From an uncultured Archangium sp. (GTDB taxonomy: Bacteria; Myxococcota; Myxococcia; Myxococcales; Myxococcaceae): 64,000 nucleotides of DNA. Positions 4,418 through 23,228 of the stretch are shown one piece after another (position 1 is the stretch's first letter; each line of letters begins with the position of its first letter). The position numbers were made by a program, and so were the translations under genes. The DNA lies in NCBI GenBank assembly GCA_903905455.1, contig CAIVGN010000050.1, positions 1 to 64,000 of the forward strand, in the 5' to 3' direction. Below the pieces are notes generated by a model that saw nothing but the letters and a program-made list of their open reading frames with translations, ran no database searches and was not told the origin of the DNA.

Positions 4418-7400
4418 AGCCGGCCGGTGACGGTCAGCGCCCCGAACAACCAGAAGCGCTGCAGGTCGGCCGGGCCACCGAAGTAGTACGACAGCGGCAC
4501 CTCGGCGCCGATGGCGAGGTTGCGGATCACCCGGAACTCCACGCCCACCGCGCCGCCGACGCCCACCATGGGGCCGGCGGCCGCGAAGAACACCGGCACC
4601 TCCAGCGAGACCAGCGGCCGCACGCGCCCGCTCGCGTTGAAGGGGACCCAGGTGCCGCGGGCCATCACCCCCACGGGAGAGGCGATGACCGCGCCCAGGC
4701 CGAGCGAGAAGGCCTCGGAGAAGCTCCAGTCGACGTGCACCACGAAGGCCCCCAGCGGCCGCGGCGACAGGTTCAGGGGCGACAGCTGCCCGCGCACGGT
4801 GAGGCCGAAGTGGGTCCCGTCGAGCTCGGTGGAACCCGGCGAGGCGCTGAGGTCACCCTGGGGACCTCCCGCGGCCACCTCCGGCGCTGGTGCAGGGAAG
4901 AGCGCGGCGACGGTCGGGGGGATCGCGTCGAGGAAGGCCTCCTCGCTCACGTTCTTCACCCGCTCGGTGTGCCGCACGACCTCGCTGCCCTCGAGCTCGA
5001 TGACGGTGGTGCTGAGCACCGCCGACCCCCCCAGGCGCGCGACGGAGCCGAAGGTAATCTTGTCGACGCCCAGCGCGTTGCCGATCTCCACCATGCACTG
5101 CATGTTGTCGGCGCAGCCGCTGGCGCCGAGCATCTCGCGCTGGCGCTCGAAGCTCAGCCGCGCCGCGACGTCGCGCGACGAGGTCACCTCGAGGTCCTTG
5201 TGCGTGGCGAGGGCCGAGGCGATGGCGTCGGTGATCACCCCGGCGAGTTCCTTCTGCACGCCCGGGCCGCACTCGAGGGGCAATACCGCGACCTTGATGC
5301 GGCGATGGGGATCCCTCGGAGTGGCCGCCTTCGTCGGCGTGGGCGTGGGGGCGACCGTCGCCGCAGGGGGCGGGGCCTCGACGGGAGGCGCTTCGACCTT
5401 CGGAGCGATCTCGGGCGCCGGCGCCGGGACCTGCTTGCCCGCCGCCTTCGTCACCTTGCCGCTCTTCGGCTTCACCGGCTCGGCGCGCGAGGTGAGTGGG
5501 AGCATGGTCAGTGCCGCCACCATCACCATGCCCGCCGGGCTGCGCCGGCGAACGGCGAACAGCAGCATCAGCACGCCCGGCCACACGAGGCTCGAGCCCG
5601 AGGCTCCGCTCGCACCGCACAGGCAGCCGTAGAGACCCGGAGCGGGCGTCGTCCCGCCGTCAGTCCCGTCACCCGCGTCCGCCGGGTTGGTGGTGCCGGC
5701 GTCGGGAGGCGTGCCGGCGTCGGCCATGGACCCGGCGTCGACTTCGACCGACGCATCCAGTTGGCCCGCGTCGACGGTGCCCGCGTCGACGGTGCCTGCG
5801 TCGACGGTGCCCGCGTCGACGGTGCCCGCGTCGACGGTGCCCGCGTCGATGGAGCCTGCGTCGGGGACCATGACCATGCCCGCGTCAACCCCCGCGTCGA
5901 CGGTGCCGGCATCGACCGGCACGCCGACGAAGAGCGGTCGCCCGGGGCCGGTGATGCCGTTGACGTTGGCGCGCAGCCAGTACCAGCCGCTCGGTGCCTG
6001 GGGCGGAATGCGGGCGTCGGTGGTGGTGCCGGTCCAGTTCGAGATGGGGGCGAAGAAGCGCTGCTCGTTGCCCTGTCGCTCCATGGTGATGAGGGGGAAG
6101 TTGCTCGCCGGGCTGCCTCGCGAGCCGCCCATGCCGATGTGCAGGCCCGCGAAGCCGGTGCCGGTCAACGCGACCGTGGTGCCGGGAGGCGCCGAGGTGA
6201 CGGAGAGCGGATCGAGCACCGGCACCGAGCCGGGCACGGGGTTGCGACCCTCGTCGAAGCGCTCGACGTTGACCTCGTTGGGGCCGATGGGCGTGCTGCC
6301 CCCGGCGATGAGCACCTGGCCGGAGGGCAACAGCGTGGCCGTGCCTCCCTCGTGCCCAGTGACGGTGAGGGCGGGGCTCGTCCACTGGCCCGTCTCGAGG
6401 TCGAAGATGTCGAGGGCCCGGACGGCGCCCGTCGCCGCGAGGCCTCCGCCGGCGAGCATCACCTGGTTGTTGGCGAGCACCACCGCGGCGTGCCGGGCGC
6501 GGGCGCGGGGCAGGGCCGGCAGCGCGGTCCAGCCCGTCGCGGCTTCCCACACGGCGGCCGAGGTGGTCTCGAGCCCGCTGGGGGTGGTGACCCCGCCGGC
6601 GATCAACACCGCGCCGGAGCCGAGCAAGGTCGCGGTGGCGTCGTACACGGGGAAGGGCAGTGGCTGCCCCGGGTTGCTCCACGTGTTGGCCTGGGGGTCG
6701 TAGAGCTCGGTGGAGTTGAGCGCCGAGGTGCCCGACTTGCCCGAGGCGACCAGGACGCGCCCGTCGGAGAGCAGCGTGGCGACGTGATTCGAGCGCTGGT
6801 TGCCCTGGAAGGTGCCCGCCGGCGACCAGCCCCAGCCGCCGTCGACCGGGCCGTAGCGCTCGGCAGACTTGATGGCCCCGCCGGTCGCGCCCAGTCCGCC
6901 GGCCACCACGACCGTGCCGTCGGGGAGGGCGGTGGCGGTGTGAAACGCGCGCGCCGCGGTGAGCGACGGCCCGGGTGACCAGGTCCCTGACGTGGGGTCG
7001 TAGAGCTCGACGGTGGCGGTGGCCGCGGCGCCTGTGTTGCCGCCGACGACGAGCACCCGGCCGTCGTGAAGCAGCGTGGCGGTGTGGCCGATGCGGGGGG
7101 TGCCCATGGGCAGGCCGGGGAGGGCGCCGCCGTCGAGGTAGAGCTGCACGTTGGTGGTCGGGGTGGCGCCGCTGGCCGCACCGCCGGCGAGCAACACCGC
7201 ACCGGTGTTGAGCAGGGTGGCGGTCTGGTTCGTGACGCCCTGGGGCAGGGTCCCGCCGTCGATGACGAAGGGCGCGGTGATGTCGATGATGCCCACGCGG
7301 GTGGTGCCCGGCTTGTCGATGCCGTTGAAGATGCCGCCGATGATCAGGGTCTTGCCGTTGGGCATGAGCACGGCGTTGGTCTGGAAGAACCAGTCACTGT

Positions 7401-14968: not shown

Positions 14969-15892
14969 ATGCGCATCGTCTTCATGGGCACTCCTTCGTT
15001 CGCGGTGAAGTCACTCGAGGCCTGCCTGCGGTTGGGCGAGGTGGTCGCCGTGGTGACCCAGCCCGACAAGCCCCGGGGGCGCGGCCAGGAGGTGAGCTTC
15101 TCCCCGGTCAAGGAACTCGCTGTCGCCCGCGGCATCCCCGTGCTGCAGCCGGTGAAGATCCGCGGCACCGACTTCGCGGAGGTCCTCCGGAAGCTCGAGG
15201 CCGACGTCGCGGTGGTGACCGCCTACGGGAAGATCCTCCCCCAGGACGTGCTCGACGCCCCGCGCCGGGGCTGCGTCAACGTGCACGCCTCGCTGCTCCC
15301 GCGCTTCCGGGGCGCCGCGCCGATCCAGTGGGCCCTGGCCGCCGGCGACGAGAAGTCGGGCGTGTGCCTGATGCAGATGGATGCGGGCATGGACACCGGG
15401 GGCATCATCGACCGGGCGGAGCTGACCATCGGCGCCGACGACACCTCGGCCTCGCTGCACGACACGCTCTCGGACCTGGGCGGCGTGGTGCTCGAGCGCT
15501 CGTTGGCCCGGTACGTCGCAGGCGAGTTGCCCGTGGTGCCCCAGCCCACTCAGGGCGTGGTGATGGCGCCGATGATCAAGAAGGAAGACGGCAAGCTCGA
15601 CTGGTCGAAGCGCGCGGTGGAGCTCGAGCGCCGCCTGCGCGCCTTCACCCCGTGGCCGGGCGCGTTCTGCACCTTCGAGGGCAGCCTGCTCAAGGTGGCG
15701 AAGGCGGCCGCGGGGCAGGGCCTGGGCGCGCCGGGCACGGTGCTCGCCGCGTCGGCCGCGGGCGTCGAGGTGGCGTGCGCCGAGGGCTCGTTGCTGCTCC
15801 TCTCGCTGCAGCCCGAGGGCAAGCGCGCCATGACGGCCCAGGAGTTCCTCGCGGGCCGCAAGCTCGTCGTGGGCACCACCCCGTTCTCGTGA
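14969..15892 (+). CDS. fmt: Methionyl-tRNA formyltransferase
   Basis: 307 residues, typical for Fmt, which formylates Met-tRNA(fMet) using 10-formyl-THF for translation initiation. The N-terminus MRIVFMGTPSFAV is the family signature. The catalytic/folate region N-V-H-A-S-L-L-P-R-F-R-G-A-A-P-I lies near residues 107-123 and the G-M-D-T-G-G motif near residue 145. The C-terminal OB-like domain starts at the R-A-F-T-P-W-P-G segment. A TACACG box lies 16 nt before the ATG with no Shine-Dalgarno. The stop overlaps the next start (GTGA). Confidence 0.96.
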   Translation: MRIVFMGTPSFAVKSLEACLRLGEVVAVVTQPDKPRGRGQEVSFSPVKELAVARGIPVLQPVKIRGTDFAEVLRKLEADVAVVTAYGKILPQDVLDAPRRGCVNVHASLLPRFRGAAPIQWALAAGDEKSGVCLMQMDAGMDTGGIIDRAELTIGADDTSASLHDTLSDLGGVVLERSLARYVAGELPVVPQPTQGVVMAPMIKKEDGKLDWSKRAVELERRLRAFTPWPGAFCTFEGSLLKVAKAAAGQGLGAPGTVLAASAAGVEVACAEGSLLLLSLQPEGKRAMTAQEFLAGRKLVVGTTPFS

Positions 15893-16479
15893 CCGAAGCG
15901 GAAGCACTGGAGCAGGCGGTGGCGCGCGCCGAGGCGGAGGTGGCCGAGCTCAAGGCCGCGCTGGCCACCGGCGAGGCGATGCGCCACGCGCTGACCGTCG
16001 AGGCGCTGACGAAGGCGCAGGCCGGGCGCGACGCGCTGGTGGCCGCCGAGGCGGAGTTGCTGGCCCAGGCCGCGCTGTTGCGCACCGAGCGTGACGCGTT
16101 GCAGGCGAAGGCCGAGCGCCCCGCGGTGCACCTGCCGCTCTTCATCGGTGGGCCGCTGCGCTGGTACCTGCGCACCACCGGCCTGGCGATCTTCCTGGGC
16201 AGCGTCGTCGCCGCGAACCGCTACGTGCACAGCCCGGGCCTCGTCCTCGCGCTGTTGGTGGGGATGCCGGTGGCCTTCGTGCTGGTGCTGGTGGCAGGCT
16301 CGCTGCGTGAGTCGGGAATTGAGGACGCGCCTCGAGGAAGCCCAGGCCCGGGTGCAGGACCTGCGCAGCTGCCTGCCGACGATGGACGTGTCGAGCCCGC
16401 TGCCGGAGGACCTGGCGCGGCTCACGTCGCTGGGCCAGCAGACGACGGCGCTGGAGCTGCGGATGGAGAAGGCCCGTGA
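15889..16479 (+). CDS. Coiled-coil membrane protein (real coding probably ends near 16310)
   Basis: From GTG 15889, which overlaps the fmt stop. Residues 1-75 are an Ala/Glu-rich coiled coil (A-L-E-Q-A-V-A-R-A-E-A-E-V-A-E). Two membrane helices follow: about 90-105 (L-R-T-T-G-L-A-I-F-L-G-S-V-V-A) and 115-138 (L-V-L-A-L-L-V-G-M-P-V-A-F-V-L-V-L-V-A-G). After codon 140 this frame turns into Gly/Pro/Ala-rich filler up to the stop at 16479, while good coding continues in another frame from GTG 16307. So either the end is wrong because of a one-base error, or this and the next ORF form one protein split by a frameshift. Function is unknown. Confidence 0.6.
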   Translation: MTEAEALEQAVARAEAEVAELKAALATGEAMRHALTVEALTKAQAGRDALVAAEAELLAQAALLRTERDALQAKAERPAVHLPLFIGGPLRWYLRTTGLAIFLGSVVAANRYVHSPGLVLALLVGMPVAFVLVLVAGSLRESGIEDAPRGSPGPGAGPAQLPADDGRVEPAAGGPGAAHVAGPADDGAGAADGEGP

Positions 16480-16750
16480 GACGCGCGAGCTGCTCTTGCG
16501 CGACCGCGATGCCGCCGAGCGCGCCGTGCTGCGCCAGGAACCCCCTCCGGCCGGCGTGGGCTCCGCGCTGCCCGCGATGTTGCTGCTCGGCTTCGGCACC
16601 GGCGGGGTGCTCATCCATTCGTGGCTCGATTCTCCGTTCGGTCGCCTCTGGCCGCGCACGGCCGTCGCGTTCGCCTTCGGCGCGAGCTCGCTGTGGTTGC
16701 TGCGCAGCGCCTGGCGCATCGGCCGCGTGTCCGGTGCGCGTGGGGCCTGA
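16307..16750 (+). CDS. Coiled-coil membrane protein, or second half of a frameshifted gene
   Basis: 147 residues if translated from GTG 16307 (M-S-R-E-L-R-T-R-L-E-E-A-Q-A-R-V-Q). A short coiled coil (to about residue 75) is followed by two predicted membrane helices: A-L-P-A-M-L-L-L-G-F-G-T-G-G-V-L, and A-V-A-F-A-F-G-A-S-S-L-W-L-L. The architecture copies that of the preceding ORF, which suggests either tandem paralogues joined by overlapping GTGA start/stop signals or one protein with two coiled-coil/double-TM units. A TGA at 16308-16310, in the third frame, would have been the natural stop of the upstream gene. Function is unknown. Confidence 0.6.
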   Translation: MSRELRTRLEEAQARVQDLRSCLPTMDVSSPLPEDLARLTSLGQQTTALELRMEKARETRELLLRDRDAAERAVLRQEPPPAGVGSALPAMLLLGFGTGGVLIHSWLDSPFGRLWPRTAVAFAFGASSLWLLRSAWRIGRVSGARGA

Positions 16751-16753
16751 GCT

Positions 16754-18877
16754 GTGAGGCGCTGGGGCCTGCTGGTGCTGCTCGCCGCCGGGCGCGTCGG
16801 GGCGCAGGAGGACGCGGGCGCCCGCTTCGAGACCACCGTGTCGAGCGCGCCCGCGGAGGTGCCCTCGGAGCGCGCCGCGAGCGAGGTGCGACAGGGTGAC
16901 CTCGAGCGCCGGCTCCCCCGCCGCGCGCCCGACGCCCTGCGCTTCGAGCCGGGGGTCTTCATTCAACAGACCGCCCACGGCCAGGCCTCGGCCTACCTGC
17001 GCGGCCTCACCGGGCAGCAGACGGTGCTGCTCTTCGACGGCGTGCGCCTCAACACCAGCACCTGGCGCCAGGGGCCCAACCAGTACTTCTTCACCCTCGA
17101 CGCGGCCACCGTCGACGCCATCGAGGTGCTGCGCGGCGGCGCCTCGACGCGCTTCGGCAGCGACGCGTTGGGCGGCGTCATCTCCGCCACGCCCCTCGAG
17201 GCGCCGGTCGCGGACGGGCGCTTCCGCTTGAGCCCGGTGCTCACCTTGAAGGGCACCACCGCCGACAGCGAGGCCGGCGGGCGGGTGTCGGTCTCGGGCA
17301 CGGCGGGGCCGGTGGGCTTCATCGGCGGGGTGGGGCTGCGACGCGTGGGGTTGCTGCAGAGCGCGGGCACGGTGCGCAGCCCGCTGGATGGCCGGCCCCC
17401 CGACGTGCCGCGCTTCGCCCCCGACGGAAGAACCCAGCTGGGCACCGGCTTCAACGAGCTCACCGCCGATGGTCGCTTCACGGTGCACCCTTCGGCGAGC
17501 CACGAGCTGACGCTCGCCTCGCAGGCCTACCGCCAGTTCGACGCCCCGCGCACCGACCAGTGCCCGCCGGCCTTCGCGCGCAGCGACGAGTGCCTCACGT
17601 ACAAGGAGCAGTTCCGCACCCTGACCTGGGCGAGCTGGAAGGCGCGCCTCGGGGTGGACGTCGAGACGCTCAAGCTCACCGCCTCGTGGCAGCGGCAACA
17701 CGAGGTGCGCGAGGGCGCCCGGCCCGCCTCCTTCGTGCTCAACACCGGGCGCGACGTGGTCGACACCTTCGGCGCTGCGTTCACCCTCGGCTCGCGGTCC
17801 TTCCTCGTCAGCGACGCGGTGCAGTGGTCGCTGCAGGCCGGCCTCGATTCGTACCTCGACCTCGTCGACTCGCAGGCCTTCGTGTCCTTCACCGACATCG
17901 CCGTCACGCGGCAGCAGTCGCGCGGGCAGTACGTGGCGGGAAGCCGTTCGCTCACCGGGGGGCTCTTCGCCGACGCCACGCTGCGGCTCGGGGCGAGGCT
18001 CACCGTGCGGGCCGGGGGACGCGTGGGCTGGGCGTCGCTCTCGTCGCCCGGTGACGCCGCGTCGCAGTCACAGCCCATCGCGGCGAGCTGGGCCCCGCTG
18101 GCCGGCCACCTCGGCGTGGAGTGGGCCGTGGCGAGCCCCCTGTCGCTGCTGGTCAACGTGGATCGTTCGTTTCGCGCGCCGAACCTCGACGATCTCACCT
18201 CGCGGCAGCAGACCGGTCCGGGGTTCCAGTTCGAGAACCCGGCGCTGCGGCCAGAGACCGCGCTCACCGCCGAACTCGGCGCGCGGCTGCGGCTCGACTG
18301 GCTCTCGCTCGAGGGCTGGGGTTTCCAGACGTGGCTCGACGGGGCGATGCTCAAGCAGCCGCGCGACGTCGCCGAGTGTCCGCCCTCGAGCGCGGCGTGC
18401 GGGGCGTCGTGGTTCCGCTACCAGTTGGTCAACGCCGTGGGGCTCTCCGAGGTGCGCGGCGTCGAAGGCAGCGTGCGGGCGCGGCTCCCTTCGGGGTTCG
18501 GGGCGCGGGCCACGGCGGCGTACACCTGGGGGCAGGGACCGGGGCAGGTGCCGTTGAGCCGCATTCCCCCGGCCAACGGGCACCTCGAGCTCTCGTGGCG
18601 TCACGACTTCGGCTTCACCGGCGCCGCGGTGCTGCGCTGGGCCGGGCCACAGACGAGACTCGCGCTGGCCGACCTCTCCGATGCCCGCATTCCGCTCGGG
18701 GGGACACCGGGCTACGCGGTGGTCGATCTCCGGGCCTCGCTGCGCGTGTCGGCGGTGGTGCTCTCGCTTGTGCTGGAGAACCTCTTCGACAGCCCGTGGC
18801 GGGCACATGGCTCGTCGATCAACGGGGCTGGCCGGGGCGTGATGTTCCTCGCCACCTTCCGCCCGCCCTCGCCTTGA
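16754..18877 (+). CDS. TonB-dependent outer-membrane receptor
   Basis: 707 residues from GTG 16754, four bases after the previous stop. The signal peptide MRRWGLLVLLAAGRVGAQ precedes a plug domain (about residues 50-160) with Y-L-R-G-L-T-G-Q-Q-T-V-L-L-F-D-G-V-R, I-E-V-L-R-G-G-A-S and F-G-S-D-A-L-G-G-V-I. The remainder is a beta-barrel with alternating aromatic strands, including N-V-D-R-S-F-R-A-P-N-L-D-D-L, the usual barrel motif. It takes up a siderophore, vitamin or metal complex across the outer membrane, driven by TonB. The substrate is not evident. The C-terminus ends F-R-P-P-S-P rather than in the usual terminal aromatic. The lipoprotein gene downstream (18910) may be its accessory. Confidence 0.93.
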   Translation: MRRWGLLVLLAAGRVGAQEDAGARFETTVSSAPAEVPSERAASEVRQGDLERRLPRRAPDALRFEPGVFIQQTAHGQASAYLRGLTGQQTVLLFDGVRLNTSTWRQGPNQYFFTLDAATVDAIEVLRGGASTRFGSDALGGVISATPLEAPVADGRFRLSPVLTLKGTTADSEAGGRVSVSGTAGPVGFIGGVGLRRVGLLQSAGTVRSPLDGRPPDVPRFAPDGRTQLGTGFNELTADGRFTVHPSASHELTLASQAYRQFDAPRTDQCPPAFARSDECLTYKEQFRTLTWASWKARLGVDVETLKLTASWQRQHEVREGARPASFVLNTGRDVVDTFGAAFTLGSRSFLVSDAVQWSLQAGLDSYLDLVDSQAFVSFTDIAVTRQQSRGQYVAGSRSLTGGLFADATLRLGARLTVRAGGRVGWASLSSPGDAASQSQPIAASWAPLAGHLGVEWAVASPLSLLVNVDRSFRAPNLDDLTSRQQTGPGFQFENPALRPETALTAELGARLRLDWLSLEGWGFQTWLDGAMLKQPRDVAECPPSSAACGASWFRYQLVNAVGLSEVRGVEGSVRARLPSGFGARATAAYTWGQGPGQVPLSRIPPANGHLELSWRHDFGFTGAAVLRWAGPQTRLALADLSDARIPLGGTPGYAVVDLRASLRVSAVVLSLVLENLFDSPWRAHGSSINGAGRGVMFLATFRPPSP

Positions 18878-18909
18878 CGCACGCACGGTCTTATTGCAGA
18901 GGGTCGCCC

Positions 18910-19989
18910 ATGCGAGCTCTCGGTGTCCTCTGGGTGGTGTTGCTGTGCGCGTGTCCCGGGCCCTCCCCAGTGCCGACCGATGCGGGCGTCGACGGCGCCG
19001 ATGCAGGAGGCACCTTCTGCCAGCCTCCACCTGCGTATGCCGAGGTGCTCTCGAGCTGCCTCCCGCTCGCCAGTGACTACACGCCGCGGGTCAGCGCCTC
19101 GTCGACGGACGCCTGGCCCGCGTGCATCAGCGACACCAACCTCTTCACGCCCCTCAACCCGAACATCTCGAGCATTGCGCGCGTGACGGCCTTCGAGGAG
19201 ATCGCTGCGTTGCTGTGGCGCGACGGCGTGCGGCCGTCACCCGACGACTTCGTGAGCGCGCGGGTGGCCTACGCGGTGGACCAGGGCATCGACTCGCGGG
19301 TGCAGCGTCGCGAAGACGTGCACGTGGCGGAGGCCCCCATGCCCTGCAGCACCGCCGGCATCCCCGAGCAGTACCCCGAGCGCTGCGCGGGCCCGACCAA
19401 GCTCCTGCCGGTGCTCAACGACGCCTTCGCCAAGGGCGCGACGGGCGAGAATCCGCGCGTGCACGCGGCGCGCATCGAGGCGGCGCTCACCTGGTTCTTC
19501 TACCTCTCGTCGCTCTCGGAGGTGATGTCGTGCACCACCAAGCCACAGGACTGTGACTCGAGCTGGGCCTACTACGCAGGGGGCACGCCGCGAGCCGCGC
19601 CGCTGGGCCTGGGCAAGACGATCCGCGCGCTGGGCGTCGAGACCCACGACCGCGTGTACGACGCGACGCTCGCGGTGCGCTGCTGGCGCAACCTCGACCA
19701 CGAGACAGGCGTGGCCACCGACCTCGTGCAGCGCGACACCGCGCGGGAGCAGCTCGACCGCGCGTTGTTGCGGGGCGTGGCGCTCATCGTGCGGCAGCGA
19801 CTGACCGAGCTGGGGTGCACCACCGGCGAGGTGCACGCGGCGAACCTCGCGTTCCTCGAGACCCTGCTCCCCTGGCTCGATCGCGCGGCCCGGGCGCGGG
19901 ACCCGGTGCAGGCCTCTGCGCTTCAGGGCTGGACCCTCGACGTGCCCGCGGCGCTCGCGGCCCTCGACCGCCTCTTTCCCTGCCCCTGA
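18910..19989 (+). CDS. Lipoprotein of unknown function next to the TonB-dependent receptor
   Basis: 359 residues from ATG 18910, 32 bp after the receptor gene. The signal MRALGVLWVVLLCAC has an L-C-A-C lipobox, followed by a short T-D-A-G-V-D-G linker. The body is helical with several Cys and a central hydrophobic block (A-A-L-T-W-F-F-Y-L-S-S-L-S-E-V) followed by W-A-Y-Y-A-G-G. This is loosely reminiscent of imelysin or DUF4856-like lipoproteins that accompany iron receptors, but I cannot confirm the family. Being placed after a TonB-dependent receptor suggests a role in the same uptake system (inference). Confidence 0.65.
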   Translation: MRALGVLWVVLLCACPGPSPVPTDAGVDGADAGGTFCQPPPAYAEVLSSCLPLASDYTPRVSASSTDAWPACISDTNLFTPLNPNISSIARVTAFEEIAALLWRDGVRPSPDDFVSARVAYAVDQGIDSRVQRREDVHVAEAPMPCSTAGIPEQYPERCAGPTKLLPVLNDAFAKGATGENPRVHAARIEAALTWFFYLSSLSEVMSCTTKPQDCDSSWAYYAGGTPRAAPLGLGKTIRALGVETHDRVYDATLAVRCWRNLDHETGVATDLVQRDTAREQLDRALLRGVALIVRQRLTELGCTTGEVHAANLAFLETLLPWLDRAARARDPVQASALQGWTLDVPAALAALDRLFPCP

Positions 19990-20002
19990 CGAGACCCGCG
20001 CA

Positions 20003-20040
20003 TGAAAAGGCCCTCGTCCCGGTGCGGGGCGAGGGCCTTC
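20003..20040 (-). terminator. Intrinsic terminator between convergent genes
   Basis: A perfect 10-bp stem (AAGGCCCTCG at 20007-20016 and CGAGGGCCTT at 20030-20039) surrounds a 13-base loop. On the minus strand the stem runs into CCTTTTC, giving a short U-tract after the 20063 gene. It may also stop transcription from the plus-strand lipoprotein gene ending at 19989. Confidence 0.75.
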
Positions 20041-20062
20041 GCGATTCATGCCGGGGCGCTGC

Positions 20063-20863
20063 TTACCGCGCGTCGTAGCCGAAGGTGAGCATCGGGGTGA
20101 CGGTGGTCGCCAGTTCGGTGGTGGTCACGCTGCCGGTGCTGGTGCCGTTGACGGTCTTCTCGCGAACGACGGTGGAGTTGGGGTGGAAGAGGATCAACGC
20201 GTCGACGCCCAGGTTGAAGCCGCCGCGGCGGAACGAGGGCGAGCGTGCCTTGCCGAAGCCGAGGCCGAGGCGAAGGTCGATGCCCGGCATGAGCCCGCCG
20301 TGCGCGATGGCGATCGCCTCCGCGTTGCCGTTCGAGGAGCCGCTGCCCGAGATGCCGGCGAGGCCACCGTTGGCGATGACCGGACCCGCACCGACGTAGA
20401 AGAGGTCGGCCAGCATCACCTCGCCGATGGCGCCGAAGTAGTAATACGAGAGTGCGGTGATGCTCGCGCTGACGCCGGAGACGGTGACGCTGGCCCCGAT
20501 GCCGAAGCCCGCGGTCGCGCCGACGGTGGCGTAGAGCGAGAACAGGTTGCTGAACTGGTAGCCGACGCGGCCTTCAGCGCCGATGGTGAACGCCGACTGC
20601 GGCGCGTGCCAGCCGATGTTGCCGGAGATGCCCCAGCGCACACGCCCGCCGGGATCTTCCATCGGCGCGTCGGCAGGCATCTGGGCAATCGGCTGCGGTT
20701 GCGCCGCGTACGGCTGCGGCGCTCCGTAGGGCTGCGGCTGCGGCGCTCCATACGGCTGCGGCGCTCCATACGGCTGCGGCTGGGGAGGCGGAGGCGGCGG
20801 GGCAGTTTCTTGAGCGAACGCGCTCGCGGACACGAGGGCGGTCAGCAGCAGGGTCTTGTTCAT
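20063..20863 (-). CDS. Outer-membrane beta-barrel-like protein with N-terminal QPYGAP repeats
   Basis: 266 residues from ATG 20863. The signal peptide MNKTLLLTALVSASAFA is cleaved before Q-E-T-A. Residues 20-65 are a Pro/Gln/Tyr linker with about four Q-P-Y-G-A-P units. From about residue 70 the protein is Gly/Ala/Tyr-rich with alternating strand pattern (G-R-V-G-Y-Q-F, A-T-V-G-A-T-A-G-F-G-I-G-A, S-Y-Y-Y-F-G-A), ending L-T-F-G-Y-D-A-R. This is the pattern of small Myxococcota outer-membrane barrel proteins. No transport function can be assigned. Confidence 0.75.
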   Translation of the reverse strand: MNKTLLLTALVSASAFAQETAPPPPPPQPQPYGAPQPYGAPQPQPYGAPQPYAAQPQPIAQMPADAPMEDPGGRVRWGISGNIGWHAPQSAFTIGAEGRVGYQFSNLFSLYATVGATAGFGIGASVTVSGVSASITALSYYYFGAIGEVMLADLFYVGAGPVIANGGLAGISGSGSSNGNAEAIAIAHGGLMPGIDLRLGLGFGKARSPSFRRGGFNLGVDALILFHPNSTVVREKTVNGTSTGSVTTTELATTVTPMLTFGYDAR

Positions 20864-20994
20864 GGGTGGGGCCTCGACGACGGGGGGAGGGAAGGAATTC
20901 GCGCGGGATTGTGCCGAGTCTCGTCAGCGCGTCTACGAAAAGACTCGGCGTTCGTCCTCGACGCGGCGCGCCAGCACCCTTAAACCTTGCGCCT

Positions 20995-21858
20995 ATGTCT
21001 TTCCCGGTGCTGGTGCTGCATGGGCCGAACCTTCTGTTGCTCGCCGATGAGGAAATCGATCCACGCCTCGAGGCGCGGGCCGACGAGCTCGGCGTCGAGT
21101 TGGTCATCGTGCAGGCCAACGGGGAAGAGGGGCTGCTCAACGCGCTCCACGAGCACGCGGCCGACGTGGAGGCCGTGCTGGTGAACCCCGGGGTCCTCGC
21201 CCCGAGCGCCTGGTCGCTCGCCGAGGGGCTCCAGCTGCTGAAGCTCCCGGCCATCGAGGTGCTGCTGCAGAAGCTCGCCCCCGAGCGCGGGCCCTCTTCG
21301 CTGACAGGTGTCGTCAAGCAGCAGGTGCACGGGCTGGGCGTTGACGGCTACGTGCGCGCGCTCGAGGCGCTGGTGCCCGGTGACCTGGTGCGCGCCGGCG
21401 CCGACGCGCCCGAAGAAGAGGAAGAAGAAGACGCGGCCCCGCGCCGCAAGAGCCTCGGCCGCGCCGCTCCCGCGAAGACGGCGGAGCCTGCGCGCACCGG
21501 CAAGAGCATCGGCCGCAAGGTGGCGACGGTGAGCGAGCCGGTGGAGCCCGCGGTGCGCGGCAAGACCATCGGCCGAGGGGCGCCGAAGCAGGCCGCAACG
21601 GCGATGTTGCTCGAGTCTCCGTCGGGGCGGCTGACCCGCGCGCAGGTCAAGGGCCGCATCGCCCTGCGCCTCAAGGGCACGCTGGGGCCCGAGGCGCTCG
21701 CGCAGTGGGCGCGGGACGCGTGGTCGGGGCTGCAGAAGGGCGCGGCCGTCGAGCCCGGCGCCAAGGACGTCATCGAGAACGTGTTGCTCACCCTGATGGC
21801 CGGCGCGAAGGCCAGCGACGCCATCCTCATCGCGCAGATGGCGAAGCTGGATCCATGA
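20995..21858 (+). CDS. Type II dehydroquinase-like pseudoenzyme with K-[ST]-[IL]-G-R repeat tail
   Basis: 287 residues from ATG 20995, with a TAAACC box 14 nt upstream. Residues 1-126 follow the type II 3-dehydroquinate dehydratase (AroQ) pattern: V-L-V-L-H-G-P-N-L-L-L-L at 5-16, Q-A-N-G-E-E-G at 40-46, N-P-G at 64-66, I-E-V at 87-89 and G-Y-x-x-A-L-E-A-L at 118-126. The AroQ catalytic Arg and Tyr after the first motif, and both active-site His (from Y-T-H-T-S and E-V-H), are replaced, so dehydratase activity is unlikely. Residues about 130-205 form an acidic/basic linker with three K-(S/T)-(L/I)-G-R units. A helical C-terminal domain follows. The stop overlaps the rsmB start (ATGA). Confidence 0.8.
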   Translation: MSFPVLVLHGPNLLLLADEEIDPRLEARADELGVELVIVQANGEEGLLNALHEHAADVEAVLVNPGVLAPSAWSLAEGLQLLKLPAIEVLLQKLAPERGPSSLTGVVKQQVHGLGVDGYVRALEALVPGDLVRAGADAPEEEEEEDAAPRRKSLGRAAPAKTAEPARTGKSIGRKVATVSEPVEPAVRGKTIGRGAPKQAATAMLLESPSGRLTRAQVKGRIALRLKGTLGPEALAQWARDAWSGLQKGAAVEPGAKDVIENVLLTLMAGAKASDAILIAQMAKLDP

Positions 21859-23228
21859 AGAAGATTGCTCCGCCCAAGGCCCCGAAGGTCAAGGCCCCGC
21901 CCCCGAAGAAGATGCCCGCCACCGCGCGCACCGTCGCCATCCAGGTGCTGGCGCGGGTCGCCGCCACCGACGCCTACTTGAACGTGGTGCTCGACACCGT
22001 GCTCGACGAGCAGAAGTTGAAGGACCCGCGCGACGCGGGCCTCGTCACCGAGCTCTGCTACGGCACCACCCGCCGCCGCCTCACCATCGACGCGGTGCTG
22101 CGCCTGTTCGCCGACCGTGCCCTCGACACCATCGAAGACCGGGTGCTCGCCGCGCTGCGCCTGGGCGTCTACCAGCTGTTCTTCATGCGCGTGCCCAGGC
22201 ACGCCGCGGTGGGCGAGACCGTCGACGCGCTCAAGGCCGTGGGCGTGGAGCGCGCCGCGGGCTTCGTCAACGCCATCCTCCGCAAGGCCTCGGCGCTGCC
22301 CGAGCTTCCGAAGCCGGAGGGCGACGAGATCGCCGTGCTCGAGTTCGAGACCAGCCACCCCCAGTGGCTCATCAAGCGGTGGATTCGCCAGTTCGGCCCC
22401 GAGCGGGCGCGCATCATGCTCGCCGCCGACAACGAGGCCCCCAGCCTCGTGGTGCGCACCAACACCTCCAAGGTGACCCGCGACGAGCTGCTCGCGCAGC
22501 TCCTCGAGGCGGGGCTCCAGTGCAAGGCCACCACGCTCTCGCCCCTGGGCATCGTCTTCGAGTCGCCGGGCCGGGTCGAAGAGCTCTACGGCTACGCCGA
22601 GGGCCTGTGGCAGGTGCAGGACGAGGCGGCGCAGCTGGTGACGGTGTTCGCCCAGTTGCCGCCCAACGCCCGCGTGCTGGACGCCTGCGCCGCGCCGGGC
22701 GGCAAGGCCTGCCACGCCGCGCAGACCAACGACGTGGTGGCGCTCGACCTCTACGCCAACAAGCTGCCGAAGATCGAGAGCGAGGCCAAGCGCCTGCACC
22801 TGCGCCAGCGCATGACCCTGGTGAAGGCCGACGCCTCGAAGCCCTTGCCCGAGTCGCTGGGCGAGTTCGACGCGGTGATGGTGGACGCGCCGTGCGCGGG
22901 CCTGGGCACGCTGCGCCGGCACCCCGAGCTGCGCTACCGCCGCGAAGAGAAGGACATCGCCGAGCTGGCCGCGCTGCAGCGCGAGATCCTCGAGCAGTGC
23001 CAGCTGGTGCTCAAGCCGGGCGGGCTGTTGATCTACGCGGTGTGCAGCACCGACACCGCCGAGGGCCCCGACCAGGTCGAGATGTTCCTGCGCTCGCACC
23101 CCGACTTCACGGCCGAGCCGCCCCGCGGCCTGGCCGCGCTGCCCACGTACCAGGGCTACCTGCGCACGCTGCCCGGGCCCGAGGGCCTCGATGGCTTCTT
23201 CGCGGCGCGCCTGCGCAAGATGTACTGA
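21855..23228 (+). CDS. rsmB: 16S rRNA (cytosine(967)-C5)-methyltransferase RsmB-like
   Basis: 457 residues from ATG 21855, overlapping the previous stop. After a Lys/Pro-rich N-terminal tail (about 20 residues) comes a NusB-like RNA-binding domain (A-I-Q-V-L-A-R-V; E-L-C-Y-G-T-T-R-R-R; V-E-R-A-A-G-F-V-N-A-I-L-R). A Rossmann methyltransferase domain follows, with the SAM motif V-L-D-A-C-A-A-P-G-G-K near residue 275. Both RNA m5C-methyltransferase cysteines are present: Cys347 in D-A-P-C-A-G-L-G and Cys397 in A-V-C-S-T. The enzyme methylates C967 of 16S rRNA in E. coli. Specificity here is inferred from architecture. Confidence 0.92.
   Translation: MKKIAPPKAPKVKAPPPKKMPATARTVAIQVLARVAATDAYLNVVLDTVLDEQKLKDPRDAGLVTELCYGTTRRRLTIDAVLRLFADRALDTIEDRVLAALRLGVYQLFFMRVPRHAAVGETVDALKAVGVERAAGFVNAILRKASALPELPKPEGDEIAVLEFETSHPQWLIKRWIRQFGPERARIMLAADNEAPSLVVRTNTSKVTRDELLAQLLEAGLQCKATTLSPLGIVFESPGRVEELYGYAEGLWQVQDEAAQLVTVFAQLPPNARVLDACAAPGGKACHAAQTNDVVALDLYANKLPKIESEAKRLHLRQRMTLVKADASKPLPESLGEFDAVMVDAPCAGLGTLRRHPELRYRREEKDIAELAALQREILEQCQLVLKPGGLLIYAVCSTDTAEGPDQVEMFLRSHPDFTAEPPRGLAALPTYQGYLRTLPGPEGLDGFFAARLRKMY

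Follow-up and report, generated by a model that had tools for sequence, protein, structure and literature searches.

The window, by which we mean the whole 64,000-nucleotide stretch of DNA analysed (positions 1 to 64,000 of contig CAIVGN010000050.1 from an uncultured Archangium sp.), contains an open reading frame (ORF) whose product begins like a type II dehydroquinase (AroQ) and ends in a long tail. An earlier note, made from the sequence, had proposed that this protein is a pseudoenzyme coupled to rsmB and recruited to a protein-binding or regulatory role. We examined if the protein could still be a dehydroquinase, which enzyme might serve that step in its place, and what the tailed protein might do instead.

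The AroQ-like domain and its active site

The frame and both ends of the ORF were confirmed on re-check, and the parts of its product and the flanking genes are given in Table 1. The N-terminal ~126 residues had been read as following the type II dehydroquinase pattern, and a Pfam search of the ORF protein bore this out, matching DHquinase_II over residues 5–126 with 61.6 bits; the NCBIfam AroQ models were all far under cut-off (the best at 63 vs 130 bits). A structure model made with AlphaFold2 from an input of 26 aligned homologues was confident for the N-terminal domain, except at the shortened lid region, and for the helical end, with very low confidence for residues 135–198. Residues 1–134 were modelled as the AroQ fold, and the superposition on AroQ that the earlier note had proposed as a check matched the domain to type II dehydroquinases of solved structure (Foldseek E 5.8e-10; Z 19.4 and rmsd 2.0 across 131 residues). 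The window protein thus has the fold, and clear sequence homology, in common with type II 3-dehydroquinate dehydratase (AroQ, PF01220).

Table 1. Positions, within the window, of the tailed AroQ-like gene, its parts and the two genes discussed with it
Feature	Position	Strand	Size or basis
Whole ORF: AroQ-like pseudoenzyme, motif tail and helical C-domain	20995..21858	+	287 aa
AroQ-like (type II dehydroquinase fold) domain, residues 1-126	20995..21372	+	Pfam DHquinase_II; Z 19.4 vs solved AroQ
Site of deleted catalytic lid loop (M. tuberculosis AroQ Arg19, Tyr24)	21034..21057	+	alignments
Predicted disordered linker, residues 135-198	21397..21588	+	pLDDT < 50
Motif copy 1, KSLGR, residues 152-156	21448..21462	+	
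Motif copy 2, KSIGR, residues 170-174	21502..21516	+	
Motif copy 3, KTIGR, residues 190-194	21562..21576	+	
Four-helix C-terminal domain, residues 213-287	21631..21855	+	
rsmB, 16S rRNA methyltransferase; start overlaps pseudoenzyme stop	21855..23228	+	Pfam RsmB/F and NusB
fmt, usual upstream neighbour in relatives; here ~5 kb away	14969..15892	+	

The lid Arg, the lid Tyr and an Asp from the neighbouring subunit are essential in type II dehydroquinase (PMC6011038). Unlike AroQ, the window protein has lost by deletion the catalytic lid loop of ~10 residues that bears the Arg and the Tyr, as judged from alignments; both His are replaced (His81 by Pro, His101 by Leu), and Asp88, which in AroQ comes from the neighbouring subunit, has become Glu. 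The earlier note had the active-site Arg, Tyr and both His as replaced, which stands for the two His residues and not for the Arg and Tyr, where the lid is deleted instead. Three of the nine key residues are left (Asn12, Asn75 and Arg112, the call for Arg112 falling in a gapped region of the alignment).

The same loss runs through the relatives that carry the tail. Tyr24 was absent from all 28 aligned tailed proteins, and was present in every canonical AroQ for which the N-terminus was covered; the canonical copies of related genomes retained 8 or 9 of the nine residues, and three copies that were cut N-terminally at extraction retained 6 of 6 that could be scored. Loss among the tailed proteins was graded, from 7 of 9 residues retained in two early-branching members to 0 of 9 in one, and no common set of replacement residues was found across the family, the His81 and His101 columns varying more than the domain average. 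The most degenerate copy (L020, genome G036), with none of the nine residues, kept the motif, the C-domain and the rsmB neighbour. Because the essential catalytic features were looked for and found to be missing, we class the window protein as an AroQ-fold pseudoenzyme, outside the enzyme family; this reading is well supported, at the level of sequence and modelled structure, by the fold match, the universal loss of the Tyr, conservation across the family and the other dehydroquinase candidate in the genome (see below).

The tail, the family and the rsmB neighbour

The window protein further differs from AroQ in having an extra motif linker and C-domain. The three K-(S/T)-(L/I)-G-R units that had been noted in a disordered tail were all located, the linker that holds them is predicted to be disordered, and the helical domain said to follow is predicted as four helices. 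The K-[ST]-[IL]-G-R motif occurred in 133 copies in 52 homologues (about six of these proteins being the same genome present in two collections), vs 0.16 expected in shuffled linkers, and each of the 52 had at least one copy. The copy closest to the C-domain is the most conserved in position, and the linker outside the motif was poorly alignable across the family. A DNA pattern for two motif copies 20–50 nt apart found no second site in the window's 8.6 Mb genome. The motif may resemble the N-terminal LGRGL element of ParB. In the open-access literature we found no relevant account of a dehydroquinase pseudoenzyme, nor of the motif in Myxococcus. Supply of the missing catalytic residues from the tail was rejected, since the tail has no conserved His/Tyr/Arg set, the motif itself apart.

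The C-domain, predicted alone, gave four helices with a mean pLDDT of 84. It had no supported Pfam match (single weak ones, best E 0.0057), no noteworthy PDB sequence match and no significant PDB structure match (best Z 4.7), which is proof of neither novelty nor kinship. When scanned for with an alignment narrower than all C-domains, it was found in 34 of 60 related genomes (a set that counts the window's own), once per genome, and it belonged to a tailed AroQ-like protein in all cases examined.

Almost every Myxococcaceae-like genome sampled has a member of the tailed family, which is also present in a few related families; named members come from Myxococcus, Corallococcus, Pyxidicoccus, Archangium, Hyalangium and Citreicoccus. 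Tailed and canonical proteins fell on the two sides of one branch of the tree (support 99/97), the tailed proteins forming a single clade. The canonical AroQ of three genomes (L032, L033 and L037, of G033, G032 and G008, respectively) sits on a long branch of its own, 0.74 changes per column; it was possibly acquired by transfer, and the same genomes also contain the candidate divergent type I enzyme described below. For close pairs dN/dS was 0–0.30 in the AroQ domain, with higher values in the linker, showing that the gene is under purifying selection; this, together with conservation across the family, rules out a decaying pseudogene.

In the window the ORF stop overlaps the start of the rRNA methyltransferase gene, as had been noted, in an ATGA at 21855–21858, and Pfam confirmed the latter gene as rsmB. 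The coupling to rsmB holds family-wide: a search for homologues with the same repeat tail and rsmB neighbour, as suggested in the earlier note, recovered the family with a downstream, same-strand rsmB at each of 56 loci (about seven of which duplicate a genome already counted); the distance was at most 600 nt at 55 of them, and at 39 an in-frame rsmB start overlapped the tailed gene. In Archangium lansinium a gap of ~3.3 kb separates the two genes. Upstream, 46 of 55 loci had a same-strand fmt, in most cases no more than ~110 nt away, and most loci where it was not seen had short flanks only, so that the order in most genomes is fmt, pseudo-AroQ, rsmB. Apart from fmt, the other genes of the window were not conserved as neighbours across the loci. 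Between fmt and the pseudo-AroQ gene, the window (15893–20994) holds a TonB receptor, other ORFs and, on the minus strand, one ORF having no Pfam match. In the window's family the tailed gene was found in 31 of 32 genomes with an above-cut-off rsmB and in 0 of 4 without one (several being drafts); the exception, G001, has rsmB and no tailed gene within 1.5 kb of it. The RsmB of the window starts with a Lys/Pro-rich extension of ~22 residues (MKKIAPPKAPKVKAPPPKKMPATAR, 21855–21926), which is missing from Myxococcus and Corallococcus RsmB.

A candidate for the working dehydroquinase

A search for a true aroQ elsewhere in the window's genome returned none, the ORF being the only PF01220 match, and no ordinary type I dehydroquinase was found there by Pfam. 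Matches to aroB and aroC, and a weak one to aroE, lie together on contig C65, where a 593-aa fusion (5434–7215, + strand; L108 of the window's genome, G000) joins a middle domain to shikimate kinase on one side and shikimate dehydrogenase on the other, as AroK-AroD-AroE. The arrangement is AROM-like and is followed by aroC, aroB and aroA; other genomes have an AroD-AroE fusion and a free-standing AroK. The middle domain contains the type I elements ExRxD, SFH, VKHVEP and APGQ, and in 14 aligned middle domains E28, R30, D32, H86 and K110 (the Glu/Arg/Asp motif, the catalytic His and the Schiff-base Lys) were invariant. Profile alignment with ordinary type I enzymes gave a probability of 95.7% (E 8.4e-9). 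A relative (G027) passed the PF01487 cut-off, 23.0 vs 22.2 bits, and the window genome's own domain gave no match to that model. Since a direct profile search of PDB sequences with the middle domain found nothing at E 0.01, what supports the assignment is the profile comparison, together with residue conservation and the identity of the fusion partners; on this sequence evidence we take the middle domain as a candidate divergent type I dehydroquinase.

A profile of the middle domain found it in 32 of 60 genomes, again including the window's own. Among the tailed genomes without it, four (G011, G025, G031 and G036) have a canonical AroQ and one (G037) has an ordinary type I enzyme in its place; no other dehydroquinase was found in two drafts (G014 and G056), the first of which also gave no aroB or aroC match.

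Possible role, and comparison with known systems

From the computed fold, the loss of catalytic residues, the single clade, the conserved motif, the purifying selection and the gene order, we infer that an AroQ-derived pseudoenzyme, replaced in its pathway, serves as a multivalent scaffold in translation initiation or 30S maturation, with a probability of roughly 45%. In this reading, a second type II dehydroquinase copy that had diverged and was sited upstream of rsmB would have lost its catalytic Tyr early and gained the K-[ST]-[IL]-G-R linker and four-helix domain; the dehydroquinase step would have been taken over in most genomes by the divergent type I domain within AroK-AroD-AroE or AroD-AroE fusions, and in the remainder by a canonical AroQ or an ordinary type I enzyme. 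Type II dehydroquinases form dodecamers (PMC9074039), and such assembly, with several motifs and a helical domain on each chain, suggests a multivalent binding platform: the AroQ-like domain may keep a trimer or dodecamer and, as a non-catalytic hub, offer a partner the motif and helical domain in many copies. That the gene lies between fmt and rsmB hints at a link with initiator tRNA or 30S maturation, since the m5C967 made by RsmB reportedly stabilises fMet-tRNA in the 30S pre-initiation complex (PMC12690207). Candidate partners would be RsmB, Fmt, the 30S subunit or initiator tRNA, and translational coupling would keep pseudo-AroQ in step with RsmB; membership of one operon is in itself no proof that functions are shared. 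That the family goes further and controls RsmB action or initiator-tRNA handling, as an accessory factor of a type so far unrecognised, is a tentative extension that we hold to be rather doubtful. The recruited protein-binding or regulatory role proposed in the earlier note is consistent with the conserved motifs, purifying selection and operon position.

The gene might instead be a functional, co-expressed passenger with an unrelated role, its place by fmt and rsmB being a relic of an old aro/rsmB neighbourhood. Several genomes of sister families without the tailed gene have a canonical aroQ after aroB, 1–7 kb upstream of rsmB, so that the pseudo-AroQ location may be old and partly historical; moreover, in the window fmt is separated from the gene. 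In L036, L043 and L194 (genomes G046 and G040) the order is aroB, canonical aroQ, a gene for a TerC-like membrane protein, then rsmB, possibly the ancestral neighbourhood of the pseudo-AroQ gene. Against a mere passenger, rsmB remains adjacent though the other flanks change and the overlapping start is widely retained, and we regard this explanation as unlikely, though the strongest of the alternatives. We consider it less probable still that the degenerate pocket is a ligand sensor, which would bind a shikimate-pathway or folate-related metabolite and relay aromatic or folate status to initiation and to the making of fMet-tRNA. In its favour, the folate cofactor of Fmt derives from chorismate, and the pocket region keeps Asn12 (24 of 28 proteins), Asn75 (19 of 28) and Glu99 (27 of 28); against it, the columns that contact ligand (His81, His101 and Ser103) rank with the most variable of the family, and several branches have lost the lid by deletion. 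That the tailed protein still dehydrates dehydroquinate, or carries out a related reaction, through rearranged residues is very improbable: the two least degenerate members, the constraint on the AroQ domain and the sole PF01220 match in the window's genome would favour it, but the essential Tyr (PMC6011038) is gone from every member, the window protein has neither lid nor catalytic His, and the genome holds a type I candidate in which the expected catalytic residues are in place.

The scaffold reading aside, the family is a natural example of a core metabolic enzyme turned non-catalytic: graded intermediates survive in present-day lineages, and there is a candidate for the enzyme that replaced it. 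An annotator who relied solely on the AroQ domain would give an enzyme's name to a protein that is not one, and would overlook what is probably the working dehydroquinase of these bacteria. Should the link to translation be true, myxobacteria have an unrecognised accessory factor beside Fmt and RsmB. The pseudo-AroQ gene adjoins rsmB, whereas the AroQ gene belongs to an aro cluster. In E. coli and other Gammaproteobacteria fmt and rsmB form an operon (PMC12690207), being neighbours as in myxobacteria, which differ in carrying the pseudo-AroQ gene between them. The nearest published case that we found is Aro1 of Candida albicans, in which the type I dehydroquinase domain is dead by active-site substitutions and the type II enzyme Dqd1 works (PMC9074039). 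In both systems one dehydroquinase type is dead and the other does, or in myxobacteria would do, the step; the myxobacterial case is the mirror image, with type II dead and a type I candidate present, and its dead copy, unlike the Aro1 domain, has gained new parts.
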